Assembly (NCBI GenBank): GCA_037974665.1
Contig: CM075767.1
Location: 20,290,840-20,354,839, forward strand
DNA length: 64,000 nucleotides
DNA from: Ehretia macrophylla
Lineage: Eukaryota > Streptophyta > Magnoliopsida > Boraginales > Ehretiaceae
Direction of reading: 5' to 3'
This document shows positions 14,191-48,434 of this stretch, in pieces; position 1 is the first letter of the stretch, and every line of letters begins with the position of its first letter. The notes under the pieces are model-generated. The model made no database searches. It was given only the letters and a program-made list of their open reading frames with translations, and was not told where the DNA came from. The translations under genes were made by a program, and so were the position numbers.

Positions 14191-14498
14191 ATTTTAGATT
14201 TTTATTTGTTCAATATATACTTTTTGTACTTAATTTTATGTTTATTTTGAATTTTATTTAGTGATATTTGACATAAATATTTGGTATTATATTTGGCATA
14301 AATATTGTGTGAATTAACAATGTTGTATTGTAGTCATATTTGGTTGTGCAATATGAAATGTTTTTTGGTAGTGCAATATACTAAAATATTTTGGGCCTTT
14401 AGTGTTAAATTGGGCTATGAATTCACATGCTAAGTTATTTATTATGAAGTAAATGTGATATACATGTGTAGAATGTTGTTGAAAGTTAAAGGCATTAC

Positions 14499-14679
14499 CA
14501 CTTGCAGCTCCATAAGGAGATCCGTACCATGTCGCTATAGCAACTGTAAAACCATTTCTAACTGCTGTATAATTAAATGCCTCCTCATTGATGCAGGAGC
14601 AAAAGTTAAGTTGAAGAGAGTAAAATGTTATTAGGAGAAAAAAATAAACAGATTGAACAAGGTGTTGCGTGATAGACAT
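14499..14679 (-). pseudogene. Beta-expansin exon 1, isolated copy
   Basis: This is exon 1 of an expansin gene whose other exons are absent here. The ATG at 14679-14677 opens MSITQHLVQSVYFFLL, a plausible signal peptide, followed by [18 protein letters not shown] and [13 protein letters not shown], the conserved start of the double-psi barrel domain. It ends at a usable donor (G|GTAATG, 14499/14498), but the sequence beyond is unrelated to the intron of the full copy at 35.7-37.9 kb, and exons 2-4 are not downstream. A TATA-like sequence lies 72 bp upstream. Unlike copy B, this exon retains an ATG and an open frame. If transcribed it could only encode a secretion signal with about 35 mature residues. 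Confidence 0.88.
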
Positions 14680-14750
14680 TGTCCTTTAACTTGATGATGA
14701 CTAATTAAAGAAACTTTCTTTTATTTGCTATATTTTTGTTTGACTAGCTA

Positions 14751-14759
14751 GTATTTATA
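14751..14759 (-). promoter_or_regulatory. TATA-like box of the isolated expansin exon
   Basis: TATAAATAC on the minus strand, about 70-80 bp upstream of the ATG, is conserved in copy B as CTATAAATAC near 37947-37956. Position and conservation support a core promoter element. Confidence 0.5.
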
Positions 14760-15550
14760 CTGGAAAATGTGTAACAATTACATCTAATAACATGAATCTA
14801 AATTTGTATTGATCGATTATGGTAAAGAATCACAAAATGATTTCTAAAATGTCAAAATTGGAAACACTGTTCGCAAAGGTTTTTGTATGTTATACAGGAT
14901 TTTACAAAATCTTTCTATTGCTAAGATTTCAAAATTACCTCAAATTTACATAATTATAGAACTTTTGGTATTCAATCTAAATCTCTTCGAAAGTAATAAA
15001 ACTAGAATAATATAGATGTACATATTTATTTAATAATAGTTTATTTATATTATATTGTTGACTGCTCTGGATTACCTTCATATTGTGTAGAAGGTTGACA
15101 AAATATCTGTAGACGGGAGTATTTATTGTGTGTTTACAATCTAGTATATGTTCTTGCAACAAGATGCGAGATTAAATGAATGATTGGATAGTAGCAATGA
15201 ATAAAGTAAGTCAACAAAAGAAATATGATAAACATATATAGCATTTGGATTTCCTATATTCCTACGTTAATTATTGGCTTGAAATTAACACTTAATACTA
15301 CATACTATGAATTAGGTATACTTTTTAATTGCTACATTGAAAATTTCTTAGATAACATTATGAAACAATTGGGCTGTCCAATGAGTTTCGTATTAGGGGT
15401 GAAAAGAAGTCAGTTATTTGTGCGAGTCACCTTCTCCTAGTCTCTGTTGCAAGACATGGATTTATGAAATACAGTCACTGAAAGAATTGAACAATATTAA
15501 TTAACATATGCGTACATTTCTTAGTATTTTTTTATGATGCCAAACTAATT
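14760..15550. other. Duplicated non-coding sequence upstream of the expansin exon
   Basis: Aligns with 37957-39125 of copy B apart from the retro-insertion there. No gene is seen. Confidence 0.6.
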
Positions 15551-15560
15551 AAACATTATG

Positions 15561-16595
15561 TCAAACTATAATGTGTGAACGATCATTAAACTCTTGAAGT
15601 TGCATATCCATAATAATAGTGCAGATTTGTAATCTCTTGAACACTACGTCGTGGTTTCCCTTTGGATGAAAATATCTCATCCATTTAAGGAATGTCAATA
15701 TCATGAGTTGTACAAAACAAAGACATTTCATCAAACAAAGATTTGCATCCAATATCTTTCAAAATTTGCAAGTGATGCATTGAGATATCAACTAATTTTA
15801 TGGCATTAACAATATCTTTACATTTCCCTGCAATGCATGTGATAATTCATTAGTGATTCCCAACATGTTTTTCATAAAATGCAAACTAAATACAAAGTCA
15901 AATGTTTGTATCTTGGCTAAAAGACCATTAGTTTCAAATCTTTGATCTGGACTCAGCCCATCTTCCTTGATAATCTCAAGTATATCAATCACTGAATAAT
16001 ACATGAAAATCAACTTTATTAAAGTCCTATAATGTGAACCCCAACTACTATCACAGCTTTGTTTGAGACTAATTTCTTAATTCATGTTATGACCACTAAG
16101 AATTTCACAAATTTTCAGTGTTTCTTTAACCCTAACAACTTGTTTTTCACGAAGAATGTCATGTCGCTTGCATGAGCCTCCAACAACATTTGATACATTG
16201 GCAACTAAGTTAAAAAGGGCAGTAACTTGCATTTGGTTCTTGACTATAGAAACAATTGAGAGTTTTCAATTAATGTGCAAAACATTGAATATAGAAAACA
16301 AATTAATTTCTTTCAAAATCAAAATTTTCAAACCATTAAATTCATCTTGCAAGTTACTAGCGCCATCATAGCTCTGCCCACGAATTTTTCATACACTCAA
16401 TCCATATTCTCTAAATAATGATTCAATACCCCTTTTAGAGATAATATAGTAGTATTACTCGCATATACTATATCAATAAAATGCTCAATAACACTCCCTT
16501 TCTTATTCACATACCACAACACAACGGCTATTTCTTCTTTGTTTGATAAATCACGGGATTCATCATCAATAATAGCAAACTACTTTCATCAACGA
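15561..16595 (-). pseudogene. ZMYM1-like / DUF4371 hAT-family transposase-derived pseudogene, copy A
   Basis: Minus-strand fragments across frames reconstruct part of a plant zinc-finger MYM-type protein 1-like (hAT transposase-related) protein. In order they read FAIIDDESRDLSN, RGQSYDGASN, EFNGLK, NVVGGSCKR, WGSHYRTL, SVIDILEII, FDFVFSLHFMKNMLGITNELS and MQLQEFNDR. Several stops and frameshifts interrupt it, for example TAA or TAG codons between the blocks. Both the N-terminal TTF-type zinc finger and the C-terminal hAT dimerisation domain are missing. Copy B carries the same broken state, so decay predates the duplication. Small plus-strand frames here are shadows. Confidence 0.85.
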
Positions 16596-16961
16596 CAAAT
16601 GGCTACTTCCATCAGTGGGAGACCAAGATTCGATCTCATAGGGTAGGAGTAAAACAAAACCATAAATGGTGATTGAGGTTTATAATTAAACCTGTGAACA
16701 TTTAGTATAAGTAGGTTTAGGATTATACTGCCTCTACTACTTGTAAGTCTGAAGTTCTTATCAAAAATGATTGTTGAAATAAAAGGATTAATTGCCTAAC
16801 AAAAACAACAACAAAAGAAGTCTGAAGTTCTTATCTAGGCACATTCACAGTCTTATATCTAGGCTAGGAACAATTAAGCAATATAAAAATCTATTGGTGG
16901 CTCATTCTAGTTGAAGAAGTACTTATTCGTATATATAGTGCTACAATTTATTTTCAACTAC
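16596..16961. other. Duplicated non-coding sequence
   Basis: No gene or repeat is recognised apart from alignment with copy B. Confidence 0.5.
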
Positions 16962-17614
16962 AGTATAACCTCTTTAAATTAATAGTCTTGGAATCAATAA
17001 ATTTTATTAATTTAGTGACATATTAATTTATCAACAAATTAATATAAGATATTTTTAATATTCTTTCTGAAAAGTGACTCATATTTTTTCAGTCCAATTT
17101 GAAAAGACAAGTAGAAAACTCTTATGTGAATAGAAAATAAAAATCTAATTTAGTAGGATTAGAACAAGTTTCACTAATCTCGTATACTAATCCTACAAGG
17201 ATTAGGATTAAAATTAGTTTCTCAAATCTCGCTCAATTTTTTCTCTTTAAGTGTATTAGTTTCTCCAACATTTCTTGTTACAATACAAGAAAGCAATCCC
17301 GGAACTTCTAGGTGCATTGCACATAATTAAAAATGAGATTCAACTAGATTTGAAATTCAATAAAAGACAAGCTACTTTTGATTCATAATTTGAGAAAATC
17401 TAATAGCTAATTTGTTATGTACTTTTCAGCTAATTATTAATTTATAAAATAATTGGATTGATAAAATACAAAAAAATATATATTTTAAATGTATTAGCTT
17501 ATAATTTTATTGAAGTTATTAACTTTTTACACTGATCCGAGTTCAGGACCAGATAATTTTATTATTTAAAATAGATTATTAGTTTGTGGAGTATTAATTT
17601 AAAGAGGTTATACT
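16962..17614. mobile_element. Inverted-repeat (MITE-like) element, copy A
   Basis: Starts AGTATAACCTCTTTAAATT and ends with its reverse complement, AATTTAAAGAGGTTATACT, giving an almost perfect terminal repeat of about 22 bp over 653 bp. It has no coding capacity. Copy B has the same element at about 40594-41222. The superfamily is not assigned because no clear target-site duplication is seen. The middle contains a local palindrome around CTAATCCTACAAGGATTAG. Confidence 0.75.
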
Positions 17615-19389
17615 ATATACTAATTTCTCATATTGTTTTAGACAATAAACAAACCATAATTTCATACTTTTTAACAATTAAATTCTAAATCACTTTGTAA
17701 GAACTTAAAACTAATTATGTCGTTTTCTTTGGGAGAAGAGCGATAGAGCTAGTAACTATTTCCAGTGGCTAATAGCTCGAACACTTTTGTACATTTGTTA
17801 TATGGCGATTAATGAAATCTATCCATACTTAACAGAAAAGATAAACCGAAAGAAAAAAGAAGAAAATGGAAATTGGGCATCTATTTTTCTTTAAAGTTGA
17901 CAAAGTTGGTGCACCACGTATATTTATTATTTTTTACAAAGCCCCCATTGGTGTTACTTTTTTTCATGGGGTCTCTAAAAATATCAATTATTACTTTTTA
18001 GAGACCCAAATGACTTTTTACAAACTCTATTGATGATACTCTTAGGATTGCGACTCCAACTAGCTTATTTCTGAACCACATATATTTCATGATGTTTCAA
18101 TGAACTCCTCATGTAATATGAAAATCATGTACTCCATTGACCTAGCAACAAGAATTAGTTGCACTACTTTCACAAATTTGACCAACAAATTAAAGTTTTG
18201 TTATTTAGTAAAATAAACTTATTAATTTTAAATTAAAATTATTAATTAATTTTGTTAATTAATTAAAGTTCCTTATTAAATAACTTAATTTTTAATTAAC
18301 TAAATTAATGTATTATTTATTAAAATAGATTAATTAATTAACTTATTAAAAGAATTTGAAGTTCAACCACAAAAAATGTTCATATAATATTAAAGGCATT
18401 TTCATTTTATACAGTTCTACTCAAACAAATTTTTTACTCTTTTGTTTTATTTTTTAAAGCTATTCTAGAAATCTGTTTCACAAAACAAAAAAATGGGAAT
18501 AAGTTTTTGGTGTAATCAGTTTTTGATTGCCATCGTGGTCTTCACCAAACTCAACTATACCAAAATCATGTGTGTATGTGTGCGCATGTGTGTGTGTGTG
18601 TGTGAAGGAGGTGGCAGAAGAAGAAGAGAAGGGAAAAAGATGAAAAAGAATTTTGTTAAATGATTAGGGGTTAATAAGTAATTTAGATTAAAGAGGGCAC
18701 ATTTGGAATTGTGCTTACTCAATTAAGGGTAAAATAGTCATTTTATAAAAATAGTATGATTTTTTGTTAGCTATTAACGATACTTTGTCAGTTGTGACTA
18801 ATTGTTAACTTTTGGTAGATATTGGTTGACTAAGCACGTAACTTTTGAAATAATAATGACCAATTTGAGAAAAAAAATATACATGTTGGGATCATTTGTG
18901 AAATTTACCCTTATTTATTTTTGTCTCTTTTGTATGTTAAGATGTCATTAGTATTTAAAATTATATATTTTTACATTTACTTTTTTATAATTAATATACG
19001 AAAAAATTTATGCATAAATGATTGGCTGCTAACATATCTCAATTAGCAATAGAGCAGGTTGGTATGAAAGCATAGGCAATATGAAGTTTAAATTCCTAGT
19101 TGGTCATTCTATATGTAGCTCAGATACTCTTTACTAAATTAATTATAATTTCTTCTAGAAAATTTCAATTTGTGCACCGTTTGAAGTATTATTAGAAACT
19201 ATACTAATAGAAAACTTCAACCATATATAGCTCATCAACTAATTGTGTCCCAGACGATACAATTGCAATGTGAAGTTGGATTTAAGAAAAAAAAAAAGAA
19301 GCTAATTATGTAGCATTATAGTCTTTCCTACATTAATATTTAAATTGAAACTTATTTGTTTGAGTTGGTATATTGATGATGGATACAAC
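17615..19389. other. Duplicated AT-rich non-coding region with a GT microsatellite
   Basis: No gene is seen. It contains TTAATTAA-rich stretches (18190-18350) and a GT-rich microsatellite (18570-18604). All aligns with copy B, about 41223-42986. Confidence 0.6.
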
Positions 19390-20745
19390 TAGAATTGGCA
19401 TTTGGGTTGGGTTGACACAAGCCCAACACAAACCATGACACTAAATTCGGACCCAACCTAACCTGGTTGAGAGTGAGTTCGACTTGTTCCAACACACCAC
19501 ATATAAATGAGTCAAGTTGAGTTTTATAATTTTTGACCCAACCCATTTAAATTTGGGCCCATTTTGATATAGTACCAGCCCATCCCAATCCAATCCATGA
19601 GTATAACCTAGCTTGAAGTCTAATCCAACTCCAGCCCACCACATTTGAGTCCACTTATAAATTTTTTTAAAAAGAGTATTGAAATAGTATGCATTAAGCA
19701 ATGTAGGAATGCATCATTACAAGTTTGTAACAAACTACAACCAACAATTGCTTTTAAAAAAATAGTTAAAATCTACATTTTAAGAAGTAAAGAAATAAAT
19801 AAATTTCAAATAATAGCTGAGGAGCCGTTGGTTGGTAATACCAGCAACTACTTTTAAAAATTTTAATTAAAAATAGCAAGTCATAGTAAAATTTATTGAG
19901 GAATGTCATGTCCCTTTGTCTTTTACAGAGGGATGTCAAGTCCATTTTTCTTTAGATTTTAGGATAACTTTTTTCTCGAAAAATGGAGAGTTCATTTTTC
20001 TCATTTTTTTTATATAATTTTTGCACATACTCTTATTATTATTATTATTATTGTAAATACATAATTTTTTTAACTTAAATTATACTATAACACTACATAT
20101 TATTATAGTTATTCTTTTGTAATTTAATCATTATTTCTATCAATTCTTTAGATTTTATAAGACTCTAATTTTGGGAGAAGAAATTTTTTTACGACGGTAC
20201 ATCTATAAGAGGTTTGAAATCATTTTGCATACTTTGAAGAATAGGGGTATGTAGTTTGTAACTAAAGTCAACGTAAATATATATCTTGTCTTAAATTTAG
20301 AACTAAAACGTTTGTGGAACACCTTGTATTTCAACACTAAAATGTGTCAAACTATTTCAATGTTGAAGTGGTTATTCAACCACCATTATTGTCACCACTT
20401 GAATAAGTATTTAGAGAGTCTCTTCCACCGAGCCCAACACCACCGCCAGCAAGCCCATCACCTATACAATGAGTATAACAAAATGGAGATTTTTTCCATT
20501 AGCTTTCCTCAAATGGTTATATAATATTTTAGTTTTATTTTTATTTTTATGTTACTACTATACTCATGTCTTGTGAATTTGTACGTAGTTTGTTATGTAA
20601 TGTTATCATTCTACTTGTTTCTTGTCAATAGTTAAATTAATTTTTCATGAAAAGTTAAGTTTAAGTTTCTCTTTTTTAATTATTAATCCAACTATACAAA
20701 TACTCCCAATTAGTTTTTTTTAGCTATGGTTATATGTGTATAAAC

Positions 20746-20776
<31 letters not shown>

Positions 20777-21070
20777 TGTATATTGGCGTTTGTTTATGTA
20801 TATGTGTTTGCATATTAGTATATATAATATATTCAAAATACACTAATAACAAAAACAAATAAATGGGTTCACCCAACCCAGTCCAACTTAGCTCATGACC
20901 TATAATACCGGGCTCGTGGATTGAGCTGGATTATGTATTGTAAAAAATGAGCCAAACCTAACTAAGCCTAGCCCACTAAAACCTATGTCAAGATAGACTC
21001 AATTTTTTTTTTTTTTACTCGTGACTTGTACAAATTGAATTGGTCTGAGCTAGCCCATATAGCAACTCCA
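19390..21070. mobile_element. Non-autonomous hAT element, copy A
   Basis: The left end TAGAATTGGCATTTGG pairs with the right end ATAGCAACTCCA. The flanks are GATACAAC (19382-19389) and TATACAAC (21071-21078), the 8-bp target duplication with one change. Copy B shows both ends and an exact duplication. Subterminal regions are full of GGGTTGGGTT/AACCCAACC motifs. No transposase frame is present. The element holds an (ATGT)n microsatellite. Confidence 0.85.
20741..20780. repeat. (ATGT)n tetranucleotide microsatellite
   Basis: About nine ATGT units, against about three at the matching site in copy B (44336-44348). This is a clear length difference between duplicate copies. Confidence 0.85.
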
Positions 21071-21376
21071 TATACAACCCAGGAACCACTTTGGGTGGCA
21101 GGATGCATACAATGGATGGAAGAATGGCCCTAGAACATGCACGAGAAACATAATGGAATAACAACTTTTGTCTTCCTGAATTCATATGTATAGATTTTGT
21201 CTATGCAAAGTGCAGTGGTAACTGAAAGATTTTCTCTATCGGATGCATAAAAGAGAATATAAACATCGGTGATATGGACATTAAATCATCTCCAGATGTG
21301 AAACGCTAAAATAATCTCTCCTCGAAGATCAAAGCAGGGGCCAATTGAAGGAGATAACGAGGGTCCACCAGACTTA

Positions 21377-21774
21377 AGGTTCTGTTTCGTTTAGTTTTGT
21401 TACAGTCAAAAGTGCTTTCTATAAATTTATTAACTGATGTCACCTATTTGACTCATTTCTAAAAGTGTTTTTAAGAAAAAGTAGAAGATGAAAAAAATTG
21501 AAAAATAAGAAGTTCAAAATTAAAGCTTTTCAAAATAGATTTTTGCGAAACTATTTTTATATAATGCGACAAGCTATTTTTTTTTCTTTCTCAAATATAC
21601 CCCTTCATATTTTTTAAAGTACAATATGGCCTTCAAATTTTTTAAAAGTTTAATATTATCCAATATAAGCCAAACAATCAACGGCTTTTGTTCAGCAACA
21701 CTTCTAACCAAAGCTCTACTATAAAAGTTCTACAGCTCAAAAACTAAAATTATACAGTTAGGCCAAATAGAGAT
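21377..21774. mobile_element. MITE present in copy A only
   Basis: Copy B reads CCAGACTTATACGAACTC, uninterrupted, at 44933-44950. In copy A about 395 bp lie between GACTTA and TTATTCGAAC, consistent with a TTA target duplication. The ends AGGTTCTGTTTCG and GGCCAAATAGAGAT form a weak inverted repeat. Ends and TTA duplication suggest a Tourist-like (PIF/Harbinger) MITE. A 7-bp hAT-like duplication (AGACTTA/AGATTTA, one mismatch) is an alternative. No coding sequence. Confidence 0.75.
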
Positions 21775-22892
21775 TTATTCGAACTCAAATAGTTTTTTGA
21801 GCATAGAGTGATCTGATTGAATATTTTCTCCATTCCTCCATATTATACAGGGGATCGTTCTTTGGAGACAGAGTTTGAATATTTCTTAAATACCATGTTA
21901 GTAGGAACTCGGGATCGGACCTCCCCTCTCATAAAAATCGAAGACTATTTCTAGGGCACTCACTTTCTACATAAATAATTAACGCATTCTACTTTTACTC
22001 GATGCACTCTCTTATATTTTTTCACCTTTCAACTAGATACTAACTTGAGCTTTTGAATTTATCTCTCGAAATTGAGTACGCATTTTGCTTTTGTCTATTT
22101 TCAGGAGTTTGCAGCTCAGACTCTTGCTCGGCAATCATCAAACATGTGCGAAGGCAAACCTGATTCCCCACAAGCCTCCAATTTTTATTTTTATTTCTTA
22201 AAAAATTATAGATTTAAAGAAAATAAGAAACACTTTTTTTTAACGACTCTCTAATTAAATTTTACTCCTCAAATATTTAATTATTGTTTCCACTCCTCTC
22301 ATGCAACAACTTATTACCTTATCAATATGAAAATGGCCAGTTGGTGATTTCAACACTGCTCTACAGCACTTCGAAGAAAATGAGGGAGAGTAACAAATGT
22401 TTACTTAGGTCTATGTAAGGTGTATTCTTGAAATGGCTGCTATTTGTGTTATTTTTTTTTCACTCTTTTTCTTCTTTTTGCTTGACTAGAATAGGTTCCG
22501 TTGATTTACCTAAGCCTTTGTCGATGGTCAATCACAAAAAATCCCACAAATGGTGGTTCCTCCAGCTTTAAATTCCAGCGTACCTTGGTTCATCATCACG
22601 ACTTGCTGAGAGATTTAGAAGAAAATTTGAAGGTGTCAGCAACTTGTGGCATTTTAGCTTCTTTTTTTTAAAATTATTTTTTTTCTGGAAATGCTAAATA
22701 TCGATTCAGAATTCTTGTTTAGCAGGACTAAAATATTTAAATTAACTCTCGTATCTAAAAACTTATGTTTTCGTAAGAGTTCAATTAATTTTTTATGTTA
22801 AAAATAGTTTTAAAATACACATATTTTCAAAGAATTTTTGGTGAATAAGGGCCACTTGCGCTCCGCGATTGATCTAGATACTCGTTCAAAGG
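21775..22892. other. Duplicated non-coding region
   Basis: Aligns with copy B about 44941-46250, except that copy A lacks the segment matching 45652-45835. No gene is seen. Confidence 0.6.
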
Positions 22893-23285
22893 AAAAATTG
22901 CAAAAATGGTCCCTATTATTTCTCTAAAATTTTAAATTCGTCTTTATCGTTCAAAATTAGTCAATTAGTCCCTATTATTTCTTAAAAAATTTAAATTCGT
23001 CCCTATTGTTCAAAATTAGTAAATTCCTATTATTTTTTTAAAAAATTCAATGTTGTCACAATATTTTTCTGAATATTGAGGACTAATTTGAATTATATAT
23101 AAAACTAATAGAGACTAAACAATTTTTTTTTGAAATTAATATGAATTAAATTGACTAATTTTAACAATAGGGACAAATTTTATTTTTTTTAGAAAATAAG
23201 GACTAAATTAACTAATGTAAAAAAAATAAAGACGAATTTGAAATTTTAGATAAATAATAGAGACTATTGTTCCATTTTACCTTCT
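22893..23285. repeat. Palindromic GTCCCTATTATT-type repeat, copy A
   Basis: The left side has AAAATGGTCCCTATTATTTC and AAATTCGTCC modules. The right side has GACGAATTTGAAATTTTAGA and AATAGAGACTATTGTTCC, their inverted counterparts. The same family occurs at 46250-46650 (copy B), about 27990-28480, 35270-35390 and 49510-49640. It is a dispersed foldback repeat without coding capacity. Confidence 0.8.
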
Positions 23286-23303
23286 TTGAAACATTGTAAT
23301 GTT

Positions 23304-24155
23304 TAGGGATGACAGCGGATCGTATATCCGTAAAAAATGGAACATCCGAATCCGAATCCGCTAAACATTACCTGTAACCAAAACCAAGTCGGATACCCGC
23401 CAGATATCAAAACTCTTACCAAAACCGAATCCAATCAATATTTAAAAAACCGCGAATATCCAAATCTGAACCGTTTAATTTCAAAAAATAAAACAATCAT
23501 TTAAAAATGTTTTAAAACTTAAAATTATAATTAATGCATATTAAGCTAGAAATTTCAACCTAAATGTTAAAGAATTACAGTAATAAAATCAATTAAATTG
23601 AAAAGCCTATTTAAAATATAAACAGATCTAGAAAAAGAAAAGAATAATGCAAAAAGTGAAATATAGGGTTATTAGTGTGGAAATATAAGAGGTAAATTTT
23701 GAAAATTTCAAATTTAACGTTGTCGTCCTTAATTTTGAGATAAGGGAAGACATATATTGAAAAAGTGAAATATGGAAGAAGATGAGGAAAATTAGAAAGA
23801 GAAAGAAGCGGAAATCTGGGGATGAAGATCTAAGCCGTGGGGGAAGAGAGAATGTGAAGAGAAGAGGATGAGAATAAGAAAGAGAGAGAAATTGAAAAGT
23901 AAAAATAGCTAAAATGATGAAAGTGTGATAAACGTAAAGATGGTACAAATGGTATAATGGAATTCAAAGTTTGACCAAAGATGAAAATAAGTGTTTAAAG
24001 TAAAGTATTATAAAAAGATTCATTAAACCTTAAATATTAAGTTTATTACATATTATCAAATTTCATGTTGGTAAAACGTGTATATATATAAAATTAATAA
24101 ACAGTTTTAGATTATCCGTTGGGAATTTCTTATAAAACCAAAACCTTTTGAAAAT
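23304..24155. mobile_element. Non-autonomous hAT element, copy A, right end missing
   Basis: Starts TAGGGATGACAGCGGAT after GTAATGTT (23296-23303). It aligns with the complete copy B element (46670-47639) until about 24155, where the match stops and a 27-bp minisatellite region begins. The right terminal repeat and second target copy are lost. Minus-strand frames inside are Phe/Ser-rich noise. Confidence 0.85.
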
Positions 24156-24229
24156 CAGGCGTCACCTTTCGATCCGTCTACTTTTTTAAATTTCATCTCC
24201 GTTTCATCTCAAATGGAGACAAAAAGATA

Positions 24230-24432
24230 TTTCGTCACATTTCTATCTCGCTCACATTTCGTCTCCAATTCGGCTCCCTCACATTTCGTCACTTTTTCGT
24301 CTCCCTCACATTTCGTCTCATTTCCGTCTCCCTTACATTTCGTCTCATTTTCGTCTCCCTTACATTTCGTCTCATTTCCGTCTCCGTTCATATTTCGTCT
24401 CCGTTCCGTCTCCCTCACATTTTGTCTCATTT
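24230..24432. repeat. 27-bp minisatellite (ACATTTCGTCTCATTTTCGTCTCCCT type)
   Basis: About six imperfect units built from ACATTTCGTCTC and CGTCTCCCT sub-motifs. The 27-bp period keeps both strands open; the minus frame reads repeated GDGNETKCK. It lies immediately beyond the point where copy A diverges from copy B. Confidence 0.85.
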
Positions 24433-24477
24433 CCATTACATTTTTTAAATTTCTTCATTTTTTTTTAATAATAAAAC

Positions 24478-25245
24478 TATTTAGTTGAATACTTAATCTT
24501 GATTAATCTTTGACGAGGGAGATTCTGAGCTGAAAATCATATTTAGTTGGGTTGCATATTGACCCGAAACACCTGACCCGACCCAACCAGATCCGAATGA
24601 ACCCTAACGACTATGCCAGCCACTCTGATGAGACATAAAACAAAGCACACAGCTAGGACTAGCAGATAACCACTTTATCTGCTGGGTAATGGCTTTGTCC
24701 GGCGGATGTCTGGCGCGGGCAGTTGATGGCGTGTCGGGCAACATTACGCATTAAATGCTGCCCAAGTCAAGATTAGTATAAATAGAGATTCATCCCGTAT
24801 TTATGAAGGTAACTCGTACATTAAATACTTTCAACTACCTTATTCAGCTCGAGCAAACTAATCATTCTTACACCCGAGAAAAAAACTTGGGTCATCACCC
24901 CACATTTTCCTTCCGTTTACTTGTGCAGGACCAAAGCCCGACCTGAAAGTTCATCTCACCCAGTCACGAAACACTTGACTTTAACTGTTGAGATCCCATC
25001 CTTAACAATCTTAAAAACTGTTTCACTTTGATAATAAGATTAAATTTTTTTACATTATTTTCTTTTTCAAACGTGCTTATTTAAGAGAACTTTATACATT
25101 AAGTATGATCTATGATAATGAACAAGTACAAGAACAAACTACCGTACAAGAAGAAAAATGAATGTTCTATATGTGAAATCTTAATTATTACACGTAATCA
25201 CAAATTTAAATGAAGTTTGCCTACTGTATAAATGAATCTTCTGAA
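24478..25245. repeat. Copy of the NLR upstream region (partner 53116-53383), holding a solo LTR
   Basis: Outside the LTR this matches the region upstream of the NLR almost base for base, for example ACATTAAGTATGATCTATGA, CCGTACAAGAAGAAAAATGA and AATCTTCTGAATATGG. The match ends at about 25245, where copia gag sequence begins. Confidence 0.9.
24511..25007. mobile_element. 497-bp solo LTR with verified empty site
   Basis: Begins TGACGAGGGAG and ends CATCCTTAACA, flanked by ATCTT (24506-24510 and 25008-25012). The paralogous sequence at 53133-53160 reads GATTAATCTTGAAAATTGTT with no insert, the pre-insertion state. A TATA-like TATAAATAG (24778-24786) and a C-rich 3' half are typical of LTR promoters. 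Family is probably Ty3/gypsy but unproven. Orientation is likely plus. Confidence 0.9.
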
Positions 25246-32147: not shown

Positions 32148-32152
32148 TCCAA

Positions 32153-35708: not shown

Positions 35709-37875
35709 CTAATTAGAATTAATTCGTGAGCTATAGTATTGGCCCGGCACCCAATTAACAGGAATCACATTGTGCGCTATGATAATCCTTCTTGACTCAG
35801 CTGTTGTAAGCCTTACAGAGAAGGGAGGATTTGTCTTCCCAGGGGTTATGCCAATGTTCCAAGTAGCACCCCATGAATGATGCATTGGAAGCCATTGTTT
35901 CCAGCCTGCAGGTTGTAGTTCAACTGCTGCAAGGCTTCCATCTCCACTCACATATTCGATTGTGCATGCGAAATAATTTGGATTTGAGCCTCTGTCAACC
36001 TTGAATGTTATAGATGTACCAGGATAGCTACACGGTACCCTGTGACATATTATAGTATCAAATTAAGTTTATAATTAGTGTTCATATAAATACTTGATCG
36101 ATATTGCAAATTAACAATATTATGAAGGATCAAAAGGCATCGTGAATTTCATTTGTTTTTAAGACATCATTTTAACTAGTTGCAACACTCTAATTGAAAA
36201 ATGATAAAACCATAAAAATAGGTGTCTTATTGCAATGGTCTTTTAACTATCATATAAACTAGGACTTTTTGTAACAAATTCATTAATTTTAGTCGCCACA
36301 GTTAAAACTTTTATTTTACACATGCTAATATTTTCTCATGAGATTCTATTCTTTGGCAACATTTTTAAAATTTCAGTTTAACTGAACCATTATAAAAACT
36401 ATTGCAATATAGAATTTGCAATGAGATTATATGCAACGGTTGAAAAGGTGTTGTATAAAGTTATTTGTAATGGTTTGTAATCTTTTTACAATAATTTTAA
36501 GTATTACAACGGATTAAAAATGTGATAGTTTACTTTGTGTTGTTAAACACATAGCTGTGCACTAAACCAATATATGTATGTATCCTATAGCCCTCCCTCA
36601 GCTAAATCTTTTAATACTAAAAAGGGAACATTAGTGACCTAGTAATCATGTTTCTCGTTGATCTCTAACAAAATATGTCCACGGTTTTCACATATATTAT
36701 ATAAATTTGAATCTCTTAGTAACTTTATTATATTATAAAAAAATATGTAAGAATAATGAGTTTCCCTTGAGTAATATGTGGGAACACATAAGAATAATAA
36801 ATTTCCCTCCTCTCACTTAATAATTAGGAGTCTTATTAAACATTACCTTTGATATTCAATTTGAATCCTTCCGAGACTACGCAATGCATCGGATTGGCCA
36901 CGCTTTGCCATGGCTCCAAAAGCGAGCCTATTCAAATCAAAATGAATTGCTTCGTTATTGCAAGACCCTGGACACTCATCCGTGATTGTTACAGTTATTG
37001 GGTACCCTGAACAAGCTGAATTCTTAGTGCATCTAACCTGAAATAATATACGAACAAATTAATAGGTCAATTATTAATGTAGCATTTAACAAAAAATGTA
37101 GACAACTAAACTGAAAACAACTATTAGATCGATGTTGTGTAACCTGATAGCAACTTCCACAACCAAAACCCGATTTAAATAGATTGGTGTTTCCTGCAGA
37201 TATCATTCCCTTGTATGAATTACCCACTACATCATTTTCGTAACCGCACGCTCCTCCTACATAATTATGAGTATTTCTTATATTATGCTCGATTAAGAAC
37301 AAATGAAAAAAATAAAATAAATAAACTGATTGTTAACTGTCAATGTGTCTGATAAATGGGGCAAATTTGCAAACACTAATGCTGATGGAACAGGAAAATT
37401 TATTTCTGTTAGATGATACTCTTATAAAGATTTGTTAGATAAGAATGTAATTACTTGTATTAAATTAATATATATATATATATGGAGAGAGAGAGAGACA
37501 GAGAGTACTTATTATGTGATAATATATACGAATATTTTCAAGGTCGGGTGCAAGATTGTTATCCAGTGAGGGCTAAAATTAAACAATGTAGCACTTATAT
37601 ATAGAAATTTTTTGAGGTGTGCAACCCCCACTAAAATAGATGTAGCTCCACCCATGTATACATTATACAGAAGTCTAGAGGCGTTACCACTTGCAGCTCC
37701 ATAAGGAGATCCGTACCATGTCGCTATAGCAGGTGTAAAACCATTTCTAACTGCTGTATAATTAAATGCCTCCTCATTGATGCAGGAGCAAAAGTTAAGT
37801 TGAAGTGAGTAAAATGTTATTAGGAGGAAAAAAAAAAGAAACAGATTGAACAAGGTAATGTTGAGTAATAGACGT
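35709..37875 (-). CDS. Beta-expansin, four exons, start codon lost
   Basis: Secreted wall-loosening protein of the expansin family. Exons on the minus strand are: 1, up to about 37875-37688; 2, 37256-37144; 3, 37037-36847; 4, 36039-35709. All junctions obey GT-AG and keep phase. Exon 1 gives a hydrophobic signal segment and [13 protein letters not shown]. Exon 2 gives GACGYEN and FGCGSCYQ. Exon 3 gives TITDECPG and IHFDL, the HFD motif of the GH45-like barrel. Exon 4 gives the C-terminal beta-sandwich domain, with [19 protein letters not shown] and SWGATW. Predicted length is about 270 residues, normal for beta-expansins. The odd point is the start: the codon that is ATG in copy A is ACG at 37875-37873, and an A10 run (37828-37837) shifts the frame. 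Either the gene is freshly dead or it starts elsewhere. Confidence 0.88.
37466..37505. repeat. (TA)n(GA)n microsatellite in expansin intron 1
   Basis: TA dinucleotides followed by GA dinucleotides, about 40 bp, in intron 1. Confidence 0.8.
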
Positions 37876-38523
37876 TGTCCTTTAACTTGATGATGACTAA
37901 TTAAAGAAACTTTCTTTTATTTGCTATATTTTTGTTTGACTAGCTAGTATTTATAGTGGAAAATGTGTGACAATTACATCTAATAACATGAATCTAATTT
38001 TGTATTGATCTATTATGGTAAAAAATCACAAAATGATTTCTAAAATGTCAAATTGGAAAGACTGTTCGCAACGGTTTTTGTATGTTATACAGGATTTTAC
38101 AAATCTTTATATTGCTAAGATTTCAAAATTACCTCAAATTTACATAATTATAGAACTTTTGGTGTTCAATCTAAATCTCTTCGAAAGTAATAAAACTAGA
38201 ATAATATAGATGTACTTATTTATTTAATAACAGTTTATTTATATTATATTGTTGACTGCTCTGGATTACCTTCATATTGTGCAGAAGGTTGACAAAATAT
38301 CTGTAGACGGGAGTATTTATTGTGTGTTTACAATCTAGCAATGAATAAAATTAAATGAATAGTTGGATAGTAGCAATGAATAAAGTAAGTCAACAAAAGA
38401 AATATGATAAACATATATCGCATTTGGATTTCCTATATTCCTACGTTAATTATTGGCTTGAAATTAACACTTCATACTACATACTATGGATTAGATATAC
38501 TTTTAATTGCTACATTGAAAATT

Positions 38524-38913
38524 ATTATTTTTTTGCTCGGCAAAAGTAATCTTTTCATTTCCACATCAAAAACAAAACATCGAGGTTACAAACAAAAAAA
38601 GTTACAAGGGGCTGCGATTGAAGATCAGATTGTTGAAAGGATCCGAGATGATGTCAGAATGAAAATGCTCGCGGGAAATCATTTCACACCTAGCCACGGC
38701 AACAACAACCTTTGTGCCGCTTGGAACCTTAATGTTATTATACAATAGTTTTGAGTTTTTTGCTAGTTGAGTTTCATGTAAATATTCGAGTTTACTAAGT
38801 AAACTTTTCATATATTTTATTGATGTTGAATGAAATTTCTTACTGGATTAGTCAAAAAATAAAAATCAATCTCTACAAAAGAGTGAGTTTTCTAAAGTGT
38901 TAGGATATTTACG
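38524..38913 (-). mobile_element. 390-bp non-LTR retro-insertion present in copy B only
   Basis: Flanked by exact 16-bp copies of TGCTACATTGAAAATT (38508-38523 and 38914-38929). Copy A has a single such sequence near 15330 and no insert. The left edge ATTATTTTTTTGC is an A-rich tail on the minus strand. Sequence next to it (GGTTACAAACAAAAAAAGTT) resembles plant LINE 3' UTRs. Probably a 5'-truncated LINE, or a SINE. No conserved domain was seen. Confidence 0.85.
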
Positions 38914-39149
38914 TGCTACATTGAAAATTTCTTAGACAACATTATGAAACAATTGGGCTGTCCAAGGAGTTTCGTATTAGGGGTGAAAAGAAGTCAGTTA
39001 TTTGTACGAGTCACCTTCTCCTAGGCTCTATTGCAGGACATGGATTTATGAAAGACAGTCACAGAAAGAGCTGAACAAGATTAATTACCATATGCGTACA
39101 TTTCTTAGTATTTTTTTATGATGCCAAACTAAAACATTATGTCAATTCT

Positions 39150-40195
39150 ATAATGTGTGAATGGTCATTAAACTCTTGAAGTTGCATATCCACAATAGTA
39201 TAAAGTTAATCAATACAATAATAGTGCAGATTTGTAATCTCTTGAACACTACGTCGTGGTTTCCCTTTGGATGAAAATATCTCATCCATTTAAGGAATGT
39301 CAATATCATGAGTTGTACAAAACAAAGGCATTTCATCAAACAAAGATTCACATCCAATATCTTTCAAAATTTGCAAGTGCTGCATTGAGATATCAACTAA
39401 TTTCATGGCATTAACAATATCTTTACCTTTCCCTGCATTGATAATTCATTAGTGATTCCCAACATGTTTTTCATAAAACGCAAACTAAATACAAAGTCAA
39501 ATGTTTGTATCTTGTCTGAAAGACCATTAGTTTCAAATCTTTGATCTGGACTTAGCCCATCTTTCCTGATAATTTCAAGTATATCAATCACTGAATAATA
39601 CATGAAAATCAACTTTATTAAAGTCCTATAATGTGAACCCCAACTACTATCACAGCTTCGTTTGAGACTAATTTCTTAATTCATGTTACGACCACTAAGA
39701 ATTTCACAAATTTTCAATGTTTCTTTAACCCTAACAACTTGCTTTTCACGAAGAATGTCATCTCGCTTGCATGAGCCTCCAACAACATTTGATACATTGG
39801 CAACTAAGTTAAAAAGGGAAGCAACTTGCATATGGTTCTTGACTATAGAAACAATTGAGAGTTTTCAATTAATGTGCAAAACATTAAATATAGAAAGCAA
39901 ATTAATTTCTTTCAAAATCAAAATTTTCAAACCATTAAATTCATCTTACATGTTACTAGCACCATCATAGATTTGCCCACGAATTTTTCATACACTCAAT
40001 CTATATTTTCTAAATAATGATTCAATACCCTTTTCAGAGATAATATAGTAGTATTATCCGCATATACTATATCAATAACATGCTCAATAACACTCCCTTT
40101 CTTATTCACATACCACAACACAACGGCCATTTCTTATTTGTTTGATAAATCACGTGATTCATCATCAATAATAGCAAACTACTTTTGTCAACGAC
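39150..40195 (-). pseudogene. ZMYM1-like / DUF4371 hAT-family pseudogene, copy B
   Basis: Same fragments as copy A: DDESRDLSN, YDGASN, SVIDILEII, FDFVFSLRFMKNMLGITNEL. Relative to copy A it gains a ~23-bp insertion near 39190-39215 and loses a few bases in the ITNELS region near 39440. Both copies are equally non-coding, so they decay without constraint. Confidence 0.85.
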
Positions 40196-40593
40196 AAATG
40201 GCTACTAGAGATTCAAGAGTAGTTAGATAGCTACTTCCAGTCACAATGGGAGACCAAGATTCGATCTCATAGGGTAGGAGTAAAATAAAACCATAAATGG
40301 TGATATTTGAGATTTATAATTAAACCTGTGAACATTTAGTATAAGTAGGTTTAGGATTATACTATCTCTACTACTAAGTCTGAAGTTCTTATCTAAAATG
40401 ATTGTTGAAATAAAATGATTAATTGCCTAACAAAAACAACAACAAAAAAAGTCGGAAGTTCTTATCTAGGCACATTCGCAGTCTTATATCTAGGCTAGGA
40501 ACAAGTAAGCAATATAAAAATCCATTGGTGGCTCATTCTAGTTGAAGAAGTACTTATTTGTATATATACTGCTACAATTTATCTTCAACTACA

Positions 40594-41222
40594 TTATAAC
40601 CTCTTTAAATTAATAGTCTTGGAATCACTAAATTTTATTAACTTAGTGATATAAATTAATATAAGATATTTTTAGTATTCTTTCTGAAAAGTGACTCATA
40701 TTTTTTTAGTCCAATTTGAAAAAAAAAGTAGAAAAGTCTAATGTAAATAGAAGATAAGATTCTAATTTAGTAAGATTAGAATAAGTTTCACTAATCTCGT
40801 ATACTAATCCTACAAGGATTAGGATTAAAATTAGTTTCTCTAATCTCGCTCAATTTTTTCTCTTTAGTTTCTCCAAAATTTCTTGTTACAATACAAGACA
40901 GCAATCTCAGAACTTTTAGGTGCATTGCACATAATTAACAATGAGATTCAACTAGATTTGAAATTCAATAAAAGATAAGCTACTTTTGATTCATAATTTG
41001 AGAAAATCTAATAGTTAATTTGTTATGTACTTTTCAACTAATTATTAATTTATAAAATAATTGGATCGATAAAATACAAAAAAAAAAATATTTTATATGT
41101 ATTATCTTATAATTTTATTAAAGTTATTAACTTTTTACACTAATCCGAATTCAAGACCAAATAATTTTATTATTTAAAAGAGATTATTAGTTTATAGAGT
41201 ATTAATTTAAAGATGTTATATT
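40594..41222. mobile_element. Inverted-repeat (MITE-like) element, copy B
   Basis: Counterpart of 16962-17614. The ends ATTATAACCTCTTTAAATT and AATTTAAAGATGTTATATT are slightly more diverged. No coding capacity. Confidence 0.72.
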
Positions 41223-42986
41223 GTATACTAATTTCTCATATTGCTTTAGACAGTAAGCAATACCATAATTTCATACTTTTTAACAATTAAATTCTAAATC
41301 ACTTTGTAAGAATTTAAAACTAATGATGTCGTTTTCTTTGGGAGAAGAACGATAGAGCTAGTAACTTTTTCCAGTGGCTAATAGCTCGAACACTTTTGTA
41401 CATTTGTTATATGGCGATTAATGAAATCTTTCCATAATACTTAAGAGAAAAGATAAACCGAAAGAAAAAAGAAGAAAATGGAAATTGGGCATCTATTTTG
41501 CTTAAAAGTTGACAAAGTTGGTGTACCCCACGTATATTTATTTTTTACAAACCTCCATTGGTGTTACTTTTTTTTCATAGGGTCTCTAAAAATATCAATT
41601 ATTACTTTATAGAGATCCAAATTTAAGAGTTAGAGACTCAAATTACTTTTTACAAACTCCATTGATGATACTCTTAGGATAGCGAGTCCAACTAGCTTAT
41701 TTCAATGAACTCGTCATGTAATATGAAAATCATGAACTCGATTGACCTGGCAACAAGAATTAGTTGCACCACTTTCACAAATTTGACCAACAAATTAAAG
41801 TTTTGTTATTTAGTAAACTAAACTTATTAATTTTAAATTTAAATTATTAATTAATTTTTTTAATTAATTAAAGTTCCTTATTAAATAACTTAATTTTTAA
41901 ACTAACTTAATGTATTATTTATTAAAATAGATTAATTAATTAACTTATTAAAAGAATTTGAAGTTCAAACACAAAAAATGTTCATATAATATTAAAGGCG
42001 TTTTCATTTTATACAGTTCTACTCAAAACAAATTTTCTACTCTTTTGTTTTATTTTTTAAAGCTATTCTAGAAATCTGTTTCACAAAACAAAAAAAATGG
42101 GAACAAGTTTTTTGGTGTAATCAGTTTCTGATTGCCATCGTGGTCTTCACCAAACTCAACTATACCAAAATCATGTGTGTATGTGTGCGCATGTGTGTGT
42201 GTGTGTGTGTGAAGGAGGTGGCAGAAGAAGAAGAGAAGGGGAAAAGATGCAAAAGAATTTTGTTAACTGATTAGGGGTTAATAAGTAATTTAGATTAAAG
42301 AGGGCACATTTGGAATTTTGCTTACTCAATTAAGGGTAAAATAGTCATTTTATAAAAATAGTACGATTTTTCGTTAGCTATTAACGATACTTTGTCAGTT
42401 GTGACTAATTATTGACTTTTGGTAGATATTAGTTGACTAAGCACATAACTTTTGAAATAATAATGACCAATTTGAGAAAAAAAATATACATATTGGGATC
42501 ATTTGTGAAATTTACCCTTATTTATTTTTGTCTCTTTTGTATGTTAAGATGTCATTACTATATAAAATTATATATTTTTACATTTACTTTTTTATAATTA
42601 ATATACGAAAAAATTTATTGGCTGCCTAACATATCTCAATTAGCAATAGAGCAGGTTGGTATGAAAGCATAGGCAATATGAAGTTTAAATTCCTAGTTGG
42701 TCATTCTATATGTAGCTCAGATACTCTTTACTAAATTGATTATAATTTCTTCTAGAAAATTTTAATTTGTGCACCGTTTGAAGTATTATTAGAAACTATA
42801 CTAATAGAGATCTTCAACCATATATAGCTCATCAACTAATTGTGTCCCAGATGATACAATTGTAATGTGAAGTTGGATTTAAGAAAAAAAAAACAAAGCT
42901 AATTATGCAGCATTATAGTCTTTCCTACATTAATCTTTAAATTGAAACTTATTTGTTTGAGTTGGTATATGGATGATGGATACAAC
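41223..42986. other. Duplicated AT-rich non-coding region
   Basis: Counterpart of 17615-19389, including the GT microsatellite (42177-42211). No gene is seen. Confidence 0.6.
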
Positions 42987-44636
42987 TAGAATTGGCATTT
43001 TGGTTGGGTTGACATAAGCTCAACACAAACCATCACACTAAATTCGGACCCAACCTAACCTGGTTGAGAGTGAGTTCGAATCGGCCCAACAAACCACATA
43101 TAGATGGGCCAAGTTGATTTTATAATTTTTGATCCAACCCATTTAAATTTGGGCCCATTTTGATATAGTAACAGCCCATCCCAACCCAATCCATTAGCCC
43201 AGCCTAGCTTGAAGTCTAATCCAACTCCAACCCAGCACATTCGAGTCCACTTATAAATCTTAAAAAAGAATATTGAAATAGTGTGCATTAAGCAATGTAA
43301 GAATGCATCATTACAAGTTTGCAACAAATTACAACCAACAACTGCTTTTAAAAAAAATAGTTAAAATCTACATTTTAAGAAGTAAAGCAATAAATAAATT
43401 TCAAATAATAGCTGAGGAGCCGTTGGTTGGTAATACCAGCAACTACTTTTAAAAATAATAATTTTAATTAAAAATAGCAAGTCATAGTAAAATTTATTGG
43501 GGAATGTCATGTCCCTTTGTCTTTTACAGAGGGATGTCAAGTCCATTTTTCTTCAGATTTTAGGATAACTTTTTTCTCGAAAAATGGAGAGTTCATTTTT
43601 CTCACATTTTTTTTTATAATTTTTGTATATACTCTTTTTTTTTTTTTTTGTAAATACGTAATGTTTTTAACTTAAATTATACTATAACACTACATATTAT
43701 TATAATTATTCTTTTGTAATTAATCATTATTTCTATCAATTCTTTAGATTTTATAAGACTATAATTTTGGGAGAAGAAATTTTTTTACGACGGTACGTCT
43801 ATAAGAGGTGTGAAATAATTTTGCATACTTTGAAGAATGGAGATATGTAGTTTGTAACTATTGTCAACGTAAATATATATCTTGTCTTAAATTTGGAATT
43901 AAAATGTTTGTGAGACACCTTGTATTTCAACACCAAAATGTGTCAAACTATTTTAATCTTGAAGTGGTTATTCAACCACCATTATTGCTACCACTTGAAT
44001 AAGTATTTAGAGAGTCTCTTCCACGAAGCCCAACACCACCGCCAGCAAGCCCATCACCTATACAATGAGTATAACAAAATGGAGATTTTTTTCCATTAGA
44101 TTTCCTCAAACGCTTATATAATATTTTATTTTTATTTTTATGTTACTAATATACTTATGTCTTGTGAACTTGTATGTAGTTTGTTATGTAATGTTATCAT
44201 TCTACTTGTTTCTTGTCAATTGTCAAATTAAATTTTCATGAAAAGTTAAGTTTAAGTTTCTCTTTTTTAATTATTAATCCAACTATGCAAATACTCCCAA
44301 TTAGTTTTTTTAGTTATGGTTATATGTGTATAAATATATGTATGTATATTGGTGTTTGTTTATGTATATGTGTTTCCATATTAGTGTATATAATATATTC
44401 AAAATACACTAATAACAAAAACAAATAAATGGGTTCACCCAACTCAGCCCAACTTAGCTCATGACCTATAATAGCGGGCTTGTGGGTTGAGCTAGATTAT
44501 GTATTTTGAAAAATAAATCAAACCTAACTAAGTCTAGCCCACTAAAATCTATGTCGAGATAGACTTGATTTTTTATTTTTTAACTCGTGACTTGTACAAA
44601 TTGAATTGGTCTGGGCTAGCCCATATAGCAACTCTA
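42987..44636. mobile_element. Non-autonomous hAT element, copy B
   Basis: Begins TAGAATTGGCATTTTGG and ends CATATAGCAACTCTA, an imperfect terminal inverted repeat. Exact 8-bp target copies GATACAAC lie at 42979-42986 and 44637-44644. The 8-bp duplication and TAG..CTA ends identify hAT. 1650 bp, no transposase. Subtermini are rich in GGGTTGGG-type motifs. Confidence 0.9.
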
Positions 44637-45651
44637 GATACAACCCAGGAACCAATTTGGGTAGCAGGATGCATACAATGGATGGAAGAATGGTCCTAGA
44701 TCATGCACGAGAAACATAATGGAATAACAACTTTTGTCTTCCTGAATTCATATGTATAGATTTTGTCTAAGCAAAGTGCAGTAGTAACTGAAAGATTTTC
44801 TCTATCGGATGCCTAAAGAAAATATAAACATTGGTGATATGGACACTAAATCATCCCCAGATGTGAAAAGTTAAAATAACCTCTCCACGAAAATCAAAGC
44901 AGGGACCAGTTAGAAAAGATAACGAGGGCCACCAGACTTATACGAACTCAAACAGTTTTTTGAGCACAAAGTGATCTCATTGAATATTTTCTCCATTCCT
45001 CCATATTATACAGCAGATCGTTCCTAGGGGACAGGGTTTGAATATTCCCTAAAGGCCGTGTTAGTAGGAAATCGGGATCGGAACTCTCCTCCCATAAAAA
45101 TCGGAGACTATTTCTAGAGCACCCACTTTCTACATAAGTAATTAATTCATTCTATTTTTATTCGATACACTCTCTTATATTTTTTGACCTTTCAACTAGA
45201 TACTAACTTGAGCTTTTGAGTTTATCTCTCAAAATTGAGCCCCCATTTTGCTTTTGTCTATTTTCTAGAATTTGTAGCTCAGACTCTTGCTCGGCAATCA
45301 TCAAACATGTGCGGTGGCAAACTTGATTCCCCACAAGCCTCCAATTTCTATTTTTATTTTTATTTCTTAAAAAAGTGTGGATTTAAAAAAGATACGAAAC
45401 GTTTTTTTTTTTTTAACGAATCTCTAATTAAATTTTGCTCCTCTAATATTTAATTATTGATTCCACTCCTCTCGTGCAACAACTTATTACCTTATCAACA
45501 TGAATATGGCCTGTTGGTGATTTGAACACTGCTCTACAGCACTTCGAAGAAAATGAGGGAGAGTAACAAATGTTTACTTAGGTCTATGTAAGGTGTATTC
45601 TTGAAATGGCTGCTATTTGTGTTTTTTTTTTTTCTCTCTTTTTCTTTAATC

Positions 45652-45930
45652 ACATAAACTATTTTTTCGATATCAATATAAACGCGACAGCGTTTGAAAT
45701 ATTTTCTATCTTTATGGTGACCATACGTTGTGGTCTAACCGTGTAAGCGATGTTGGATTTGACAGTGGAAGCATCATCTAGACAACATTCTTCTTCTTTT
45801 TATTCTCTCGACAGCAAATGATCAAACTTCTTTTTGCTTGACTATAATAGGTTCCGTTGATTTACCTAACCCTTTGTCGATGGTCAATCACAAAAAATTC
45901 CACAAATGGTGGTCCCTCCAGCTTTAAATT
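45652..45930. repeat. Segment shared with 52780-52990 but partly deleted from copy A
   Basis: Copy A runs straight from TCTTTTTCTTC to TTTTTGCTTGACTA, while copy B has about 185 extra bases here. The extra stretch has diverged landmarks in common with 52780-52990 (AGAAGCATCA...TAGACAAC, GACAGCAAAT, CAAAAAATTCCA). The third copy shows that the segment is ancestral and was deleted from copy A. Confidence 0.8.
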
Positions 45931-46249
45931 CCAGCGTACCTTGGTTCATCATCACAACTTGCTAAGAGATTTAGAAGAAAATTTGAAGGTGTCAGCAACT
46001 TGTGGCATTTTAGCCTTTTTTTTAATTATTTTTTTTGCTGAAAAAACTAAATATCGGCGGATTCAGAATTTTTGTTTAGCAGGACTAAAATATTTAAATT
46101 AATTCTCATATAAAAAAACTTATGTTTTCGTGAGAGTTCAATTAATTTTTTATTCTAAAAATAGTTTTAAAATACACATATTTTCAAAGAATCTTGGGTG
46201 AATAAGGGCCACTTGCACTCCGCGATTGATCTAGATACTTTATTTCAAA

Positions 46250-46650
46250 GGGAAAATTGCAAAAATGGTCCCTATTATTTTTCTAAAATTTTAAATTTGT
46301 CTTTATCGTTCAAAATTAGTCAATTTAGTCCCTATTATTTCTTAAAAAATTTAAATTCATCTCTATTGTTCAAAATTAGTAAATTCCTATCATTTTTCAA
46401 AAAAATTCAATGTTGTCACAATTTTTTTCTAAATATTGAGGACTAATTTGAATTATATATAAAACTAATAGAGACTAAACAATTTTTTTTTTTGAAATTA
46501 ATATGAATTAAATTGACTAATTTTAACAATAAGGACAAATTTGAATTTTTTTAGAAAATAAGAACTAAATTAACTAATGTAAAAAACAAAATAAAGACGA
46601 ATTTGAAATTTTAGATAAATAATAGAGACTATTTGTTCCATTTTCCCTTC
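46250..46650. repeat. Palindromic GTCCCTATTATT-type repeat, copy B
   Basis: Counterpart of 22893-23285 with the same inverted modules. No coding capacity. Confidence 0.8.
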
Positions 46651-46669
46651 TTTGAAACATTGTAATGTT

Positions 46670-47639
46670 TAGGGATGGCAGCGGATCAGATATCCGCCAA
46701 AAATGGGACATCCGAATCCGAATGCGCTAAACATTACCTATAACCAAAACCGAGTCTAATACCCGTCAGATATCAAAACTTCTTACCAAAACCGAATCCA
46801 ATAAATATTCAAAAAATCGCGGATATCCGAATCCAAACCGTTTAATTTCAAAAAATAAAATAATCATTTAAATATGTTTTAAAACTTAAAATTAGAATTA
46901 ATGCATATTAAGCTAGAATTTTCAACCTAAATGTTAAAGAATTACAGTAATAAAATCAATTAAATTGAAAAGCCTATTTAAAATATAAACAGATCTAGAA
47001 TAAGAGAAGAATAATGCAAAAAGTGAAATATAGGGTTATTAGTGTGGAAATATAAGAGGTAATTTTTGAAATTTTCGAATTTAACGTTGTCGTCCTTAAT
47101 TTTGAGATAAGGGAAGAGATATATTGAAAAAGTGAAATATGGAAGAAGATGAGGAAATTAGAAAGAGGAAGGAGGGGAAATCTGGGGATGAAGATCTAAG
47201 CCGTGGGGGAAGAGAGAATGTGAAGAGAAGAGGAAGAGAATAAGAAAGAGAGAGAAATTGAAAAGTAAAGAGAGAGAAATTGATGAAAGTGTGATAAACG
47301 TAAACATGGTAGAAATGGTACAATGGAATTCAAAGTTTGACCAAAGATGAAAATAAGTGTTTAAAGTAAAGTTTTATAAAAAGACTCATTTAACCTTAAA
47401 TATTAAGTTTATTACATATTATCATATTTCATGTTGGTAAAACGTGTATATATATTAAATTAATAAACGATTTCAGACCGTTGGATATTTCTTGTAAAAC
47501 TAAAACCTTTCAGATTATTCATCAGTTACCACCTATAAAAATCAAACTTTTATAGATAGACCCTCGGTTCTATTATCAAATTTGTTATCGGATCAGATAT
47601 CCATCAGTTTCGAATTTAACCTATACGTTGCCATCCCTA
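46670..47639. mobile_element. Non-autonomous hAT element, complete, copy B
   Basis: Starts TAGGGATGGCAGCG and ends CGTTGCCATCCCTA. Exact 8-bp target copies GTAATGTT lie at 46662-46669 and 47640-47647. Near both ends are GGATATCCGAATCCG-type motifs. 970 bp, no transposase. Copy A keeps only the left 850 bp. Confidence 0.93.
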
Positions 47640-48419: not shown

Positions 48420-48434
48420 TTTATACAAGTACTT

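Follow-up and report, generated by a model that had tools for sequence, protein, structure and literature searches.

The window, that is, the whole stretch of 64,000 bases analysed here (C4:20290840-20354839), is free of N, has a GC content of 31.9% and looks like plant nuclear DNA. Besides the features of its left part it holds a beta-expansin gene, a CC-NB-LRR gene and transposable elements (Table 1); genome searches were made in the window's own assembly (1.58 Gb, 20 contigs). No RNA families at gathering score and no tRNAs were found. A CACTA-like 5' end, CACTACAAGAAAAC, is present at 7422 and is followed up to 9907 by repeat arrays with CTACGGA/TCCGTAG motifs; the right end of this element was not found. 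A CACTA element ending beside copy A was rejected, the best inverted match (27; shuffles: 95% 24, maximum 30) being internal, not at an end.

Table 1. Features of the window and their coordinates (position 1 is the first base of the window)
Feature	Position	Strand	Remarks
LINE-type endonuclease frame and terpene synthase exons			left part of the window
Copy A	14483-24148	+	expansin exon 1, ~9.7 kb of upstream DNA and part of the hAT element; probably an eroded array unit
Copy B	37671-47510	+	counterpart of A, inside a full unit
A/B block 1	14483-15345 / 37671-38523
A/B block 2	15324-21376 / 38908-44940
A/B block 3	21771-22473 / 44934-45646
A/B block 4	22471-24148 / 45827-47510
Chimeric frame of A	14314-14679	-	ATG and expansin exon 1 running into left-flank repeat DNA; 121 aa
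MITE-like insertion in A	21369-21770		TTA target copies (read by eye from the alignment); absent in B and C
Dispersed repeat, ~306 bp	24150-24455	+	follows the truncated hAT and precedes the NLR-upstream piece
NLR-upstream piece right of A	24477-25252	+	counterpart of 53113-53386, split by the solo LTR
Solo LTR	24511-25007		497 bp; target copies ATCTT; splits the NLR-upstream piece
Left part of the B unit	25250-37690	+	truncated copia gag (minus), kinase-domain remnant, expansin exons 2-4
Beta-expansin gene of B	35709-37875	-	exons 37875-37688, 37256-37144, 37037-36847, 36039-35709
405-bp stretch	38503-38907		~21-bp direct repeat at the borders
Older NLR-upstream module relic	45735-49350	+	45735-45862 and 48433-49350; split by TE insertions
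hAT element of B	46670-47639		970 bp; inverted ends TAGGGATGGCA; target copies GTAATGTT at 46662-46669 and 47640-47647
NLR-upstream module and CC-NB-LRR gene	52798-58425	+	frame broken by one TAG

The expansin gene of B encodes the DPBB_1 and Expansin_C domains (Pfam) of a beta-expansin, and its best PDB matches are the pollen allergen Phl p 1 and beta-expansins. It had been taken, from the sequence alone, for a whole gene; all four exons are indeed there, and a functional start is not, the start position reading ACG and exon 1 being out of frame, so that no intact start with a signal peptide is found. Exon 1 of A begins with ATG and is in frame, and exons 2-4 are absent; at the left edge of A only 7-8 bp of intron 1 follow exon 1 on the minus strand, in agreement with the earlier placement of this edge within 8 bp of an exon/intron border. 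In the chimeric frame of A the expansin start and a signal-peptide-like segment are fused to repeat DNA; the 121-aa product gave no match in Pfam. The NLR gene encodes Rx_N, NB-ARC and LRR domains. One in-frame TAG (55270-55272), within Rx_N, interrupts its reading frame (54889-58425).

At the other end of the copies lies an element with an 8-bp target-site duplication and short TIRs, as is typical of hAT elements. It is non-autonomous, given its length of 970 bp and the lack of any transposase match in Pfam (E<=0.01, six frames, up to ~47550). Its insertion is real, since a diverged unit at C4:20194250-20194400 represents a paralogous empty site with one GTAATGTT and no hAT, and it is older than the A/B split because both A and B carry it. 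As the sequence-only reading had it, A ends inside the element (at 24148) and B has it whole, with GTAATGTT on each side. The arrangement seen in B, with the right end of the hAT running into downstream DNA, occurs at no fewer than eight C4 loci (at least 8; 40 of 269 candidates scored).

The repeat that follows the truncated hAT in A is dispersed in the genome: 18 of the 41 matches listed for a query covering the hAT, the repeat, the NLR module and the LTR of A (40 of 2,571 candidates scored) fall on other contigs at the repeat, with 86-92% identity, and 13 of the 41, with 77-82% identity, belong to the solo LTR, which is likewise dispersed in the genome. To the right of the repeat, 24477-24510 and 25013-25252 align together with 53113-53386 without gaps (11 mismatches in 274 positions, 96.0%), so similarity to the NLR-upstream module does resume past 24478, as was proposed. 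The divergence of this piece does not differ from that of the A/B pair (11/274 versus 507/9111, Fisher p 0.35), which supports a larger original unit. The accompanying proposal of a rearrangement around a minisatellite holds as far as the larger unit is concerned; the 27-bp minisatellite (24229-24434) is itself a part of the dispersed repeat. The two parts of the older module relic are 77-89% identical to parts of 52798-54988.

The direct duplication of ~10 kb is itself real: self-BLAST gives four colinear blocks on the same strand, each with E = 0, and a global alignment over 14493-24148 contains 9,111 paired sites with 507 substitutions (306 transitions and 201 transversions; 5.56%, K2P 0.058) and 54 indels. 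Segmental duplications are defined as segments of at least 1 kb with at least 90% identity that are not a transposon copy as such; A and B, with 9,111 sites at 94.4% and mixed content, are of this kind. At plant substitution rates of 6.5e-9 to 1.3e-8 per site and year, 5.56% divergence corresponds to an age of about 2-4.5 million years. The divergence is uneven along the length (per 500 sites, variance/mean 2.8) and is highest in 21100-22250, beside the MITE-like insertion of A, where 75 of 748 sites differ, roughly twice the average. No hidden gene emerged from the duplicated 9.7 kb: in the six reading frames of B a degraded DUF4371 stretch was the sole result at E<=0.01.

Instead of forming a two-copy pair, as had been assumed, A and B belong to a set of at least 14 copies. 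A genome search with the first 863 bases of A lists 16 matches, and 14 of them, A and B included, are long and lie in one orientation within C4 19.25-20.47 Mb; the remaining two are a 45-bp split piece of a further copy, A', and a 54-bp match on contig C5. A', at C4:19829577, lies 476 kb from A. A complete unit, C (C4:20219401-20258661), sits 96 kb away and is colinear with window positions 25250-63610, its main blocks being 88-97.6% identical; the left part of the B unit is homologous to C4:20219401-20232133. Unit borders elsewhere in the array are drawn from search matches among the candidates scored. With the NLR of the window as a query, the NB-ARC search gave 136 matches (136 of 2,056 candidates scored), at least 30 of which fall on C4 19.36-20.93 Mb, all on the plus strand and with 76-100% identity, some of them being split pieces of one gene. 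Closely related NB-LRR genes are thus clustered there, as in plant NLR tandem clusters, and open frames of up to 1,121 aa occur in other copies. A second NLR cluster, on the minus strand of C5:18.30-18.71 Mb (12 matches listed, 77-90%), is possibly a long-distance copy of the C4 array.

Expansin accompanies the NLR genes in this region. Sequence of exons 2-4 was found at 12 or more loci of the C4 array region (at least 12; 65 matches listed, 40 of 940 candidates scored), in three of the 12 with an incomplete exon and at neither A nor A'; an NB-ARC match lies 14-30 kb to the right of the expansin at nine of the 12 loci and 48, 58 and 102 kb away at the other three. All 14 expansin copies examined, counting A and A', which have no exons 2-4, carry one or more lesions. 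In half of them (7/14) the lesions found lie in exon 1 only; the frame is lost at a variable T-run in all seven, and three of the seven (C4:19327, B and C4:20470) have ACG at the start position. Homopolymer errors might conceivably account for this loss of frame, and an upstream start might have escaped notice. In A' the expansin exon of the chimeric frame is broken up by ~600 bp. A second, more distant expansin group, 68-78% identical to the gene in the window, is located at C20:26.4-27.3 Mb.

The order of relatedness separates A from B. In a three-way comparison over the duplicated stretch B and C are 96.6% identical, A and B 94.5%, and A and C 94.3%; sites common to two copies against the third number 366 for B and C, 148 for A and B, and 127 for A and C. 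B and C are the closest pair in 17 of 22 windows, the five exceptions including the first two. The nearest relative of A is A' (98%), and in the 863-bp tree of the 14 copies, in which three of 11 inner branches are well supported, A groups with A' (100/97) and B with C4:20473293 (100/100). Neither the tree nor the three-way comparison makes A and B mutual closest relatives, and B is unlikely to be the source of A, as B groups with C and with C4:20473293, and A with A'. The spacing of A' and its right-hand neighbour B' (C4:19851), ~23 kb, is like that of A and B. B' is not the nearest relative of B, and in five of the 22 windows the closest pair is one other than B and C; the units must therefore have undergone exchange or conversion.

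The larger indels fit into the same frame of comparison. The 402-bp stretch found only in A was probably gained by A, since it has TTA target copies and is missing from B and C. A stretch of 183 bp in B was probably lost by A, for it is also present in C and resembles the 52.8-kb module. The 405-bp stretch is shared by B, C and two further units and is missing from A, A', C4:19851 and C4:19524; a deletion specific to A was therefore rejected as its explanation.

Both outer edges of A are joints to the interiors of other sequences and do not look like the ends of transposable elements, so that capture of A by a Helitron or another transposon is unlikely. The left joint connects expansin intron 1 with an interrupted dispersed repeat, for which 48 matches are listed (40 of 704 candidates scored); the parents of this joint read GTTAGAGACTTT and GTCTAGAGGCGTTACC and have TAGAG in common, a 5-bp microhomology that now reads TAAAG in A itself. 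On the right, at 25250, ATATGGTTGTAAG of the NLR module meets ACATGTTTGTGAC of the copia gag (as seen in C), with GTT, a microhomology of ~3 bp, common to both parents. Microhomologies so short could be due to chance at both joints. Paralogs of the two flanks lie 61 kb apart in the neighbourhood of C (left, C4:20157709-20158510; right, C4:20219401), the interval between them holding diverged units of its own. A' contains the left joint (the alignment runs through 13612-14527 at 95.5%), the hAT/repeat/NLR-module/LTR stretch (1-1301 of the query, 96%) and the 25250 joint (22550-26858 at 96.4%). In A' these three joints lie near C4:19828950, 19839185 and 19840290. As A' carries all three joints, all three breaks are older than the A/A' split; among the matches scored, A and A' are the only truncated forms.

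Alongside the array membership, order of relatedness, common junctions and parent-like paralogs at both outer junctions observed here, the reading we consider probable is that A and B are units of a local tandem NLR/expansin array at C4 ~19.25-20.5 Mb, and that A was later cut down and re-duplicated. The full unit, of ~40 kb, would consist of the copia/kinase spacer, the beta-expansin pseudogene (minus strand), ~9.7 kb with the hAT, the NLR-upstream module and the CC-NB-LRR gene (plus strand). Its copies would have arisen as the array grew, presumably by unequal recombination between units. Three breaks would then have reduced A: one joining the dispersed repeat of the left flank to expansin intron 1 at the 5-bp microhomology, one deleting ~5.6 kb from between hAT and NLR module, where it left the ~306-bp dispersed repeat, and one that fused the NLR module, at ~3 bp of microhomology, with the copia gag in the spacer of the following unit, whereby A would have lost its own NLR. 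Finally, the stretch that begins in the left flank, includes A and extends into the copia spacer would have been re-duplicated to give A' and A. The breaks are presumably deletions by end joining, and unequal crossing-over the likely route of array growth.

The most serious competitor of this reading, though an unlikely one, is that A represents a templated patch. Repair of a double-strand break, or of a loss of ~61 kb between the counterparts of C4:20158510 and C4:20219401, would have copied ~10 kb from a neighbouring unit along with a short piece of the NLR module, through synthesis-dependent strand annealing or template switching, with microhomology joining both ends. Such patching is described in plants by Wicker et al. 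2010, as cited in PMC3445842 and PMC12573847. It would turn the three deletions into one event, and it agrees with the microhomology at each outer joint, with the colinear jump from 47510 to 53113, and with the absence of any copy of A's expansin end from the 61 kb that separate the flank paralogs. However, that interval is not a clean empty site but is occupied by its own diverged units, and a special event would be needed where array growth and deletions suffice, 14 copies existing anyway. The cut-down unit is preferred, as it requires no extra mechanism.

Far less probable still is a single dispersed segmental duplication in which A was copied straight from B. Colinearity, direct orientation and the more complete structure of B speak for it, and A and B are the closest pair in 2 of 22 windows; yet C is nearer to B than A is overall, the closest copy to A is A' and that to B is C4:20473, 14 copies exist, and this reading could be saved only if gene conversion had acted between B and C along most of the 9.7 kb. 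Derivation of A from B in a two-copy event thus falls (B-C 96.6% against A-B 94.5%, and A nearest to A'). What survives of the earlier view of B as the more ancestral copy is the structural part, borne out by the B-like hAT and expansin loci counted above; B as the source of A does not survive. The sequence-only reading was right on structure and very probably wrong on history. An assembly artefact, with two haplotypes laid side by side, is just as improbable: the window has no N, the divergence of 5.6% consists mostly of substitutions, 14 long copies exist overall, and the three junctions of A recur at an independent place, A'. Since all three breaks predate the A/A' split, an assembly error at A is strongly disfavoured.

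With A as a cut-down unit, the case is that of an ordinary NLR array in a plant: it carries passenger sequences, grows by duplication and is worn down by end-joined deletions. The thought that the dead beta-expansin and its ~10 kb of non-coding DNA, a passenger and not a gene, were retained as a homology handle promoting NLR duplication is a long shot. The locus is a well-resolved example of a putative resistance-gene array growing and wearing down, in which the outer breaks of one eroded unit can be described along with sequences resembling their parents and another copy that shares the breaks; it also illustrates how comparing just two repeats of a single window can lead to a wrong history if the rest of the array is ignored.

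A literature search for beta-expansin and NBS-LRR genes co-duplicated in a tandem array found none, which is no proof of absence in print. The array resembles the rose Rdr1 (PMC3503547) and soybean Rps1-k (PMC2330051) clusters in that NLR copies are clustered in a TE-rich region, and differs from them in that the NLR is accompanied by a beta-expansin pseudogene with ~10 kb of non-coding DNA upstream, and in that the junctions studied fall outside the NLR. For Rdr1, the same source names illegitimate recombination, unequal crossing-over, gene conversion and TEs as mechanisms. Kilobase-scale tandem NLR units, with long-distance copies and local expansion, likewise recall the long duplication-prone regions with arms-race genes described for barley (PMC12573847), although here a single locus is concerned and no genome-wide association. 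Double-strand-break repair at copy-number variants of barley (PMC3706897) leaves short repeated motifs at the break edges and, in some cases, unrelated filler DNA; those variants are between cultivars, whereas the differences described here are between paralogous units. The short motifs at the joints of A resemble the signatures of illegitimate recombination reported for the rose NLR cluster (PMC3503547) and the barley variants (PMC3706897).
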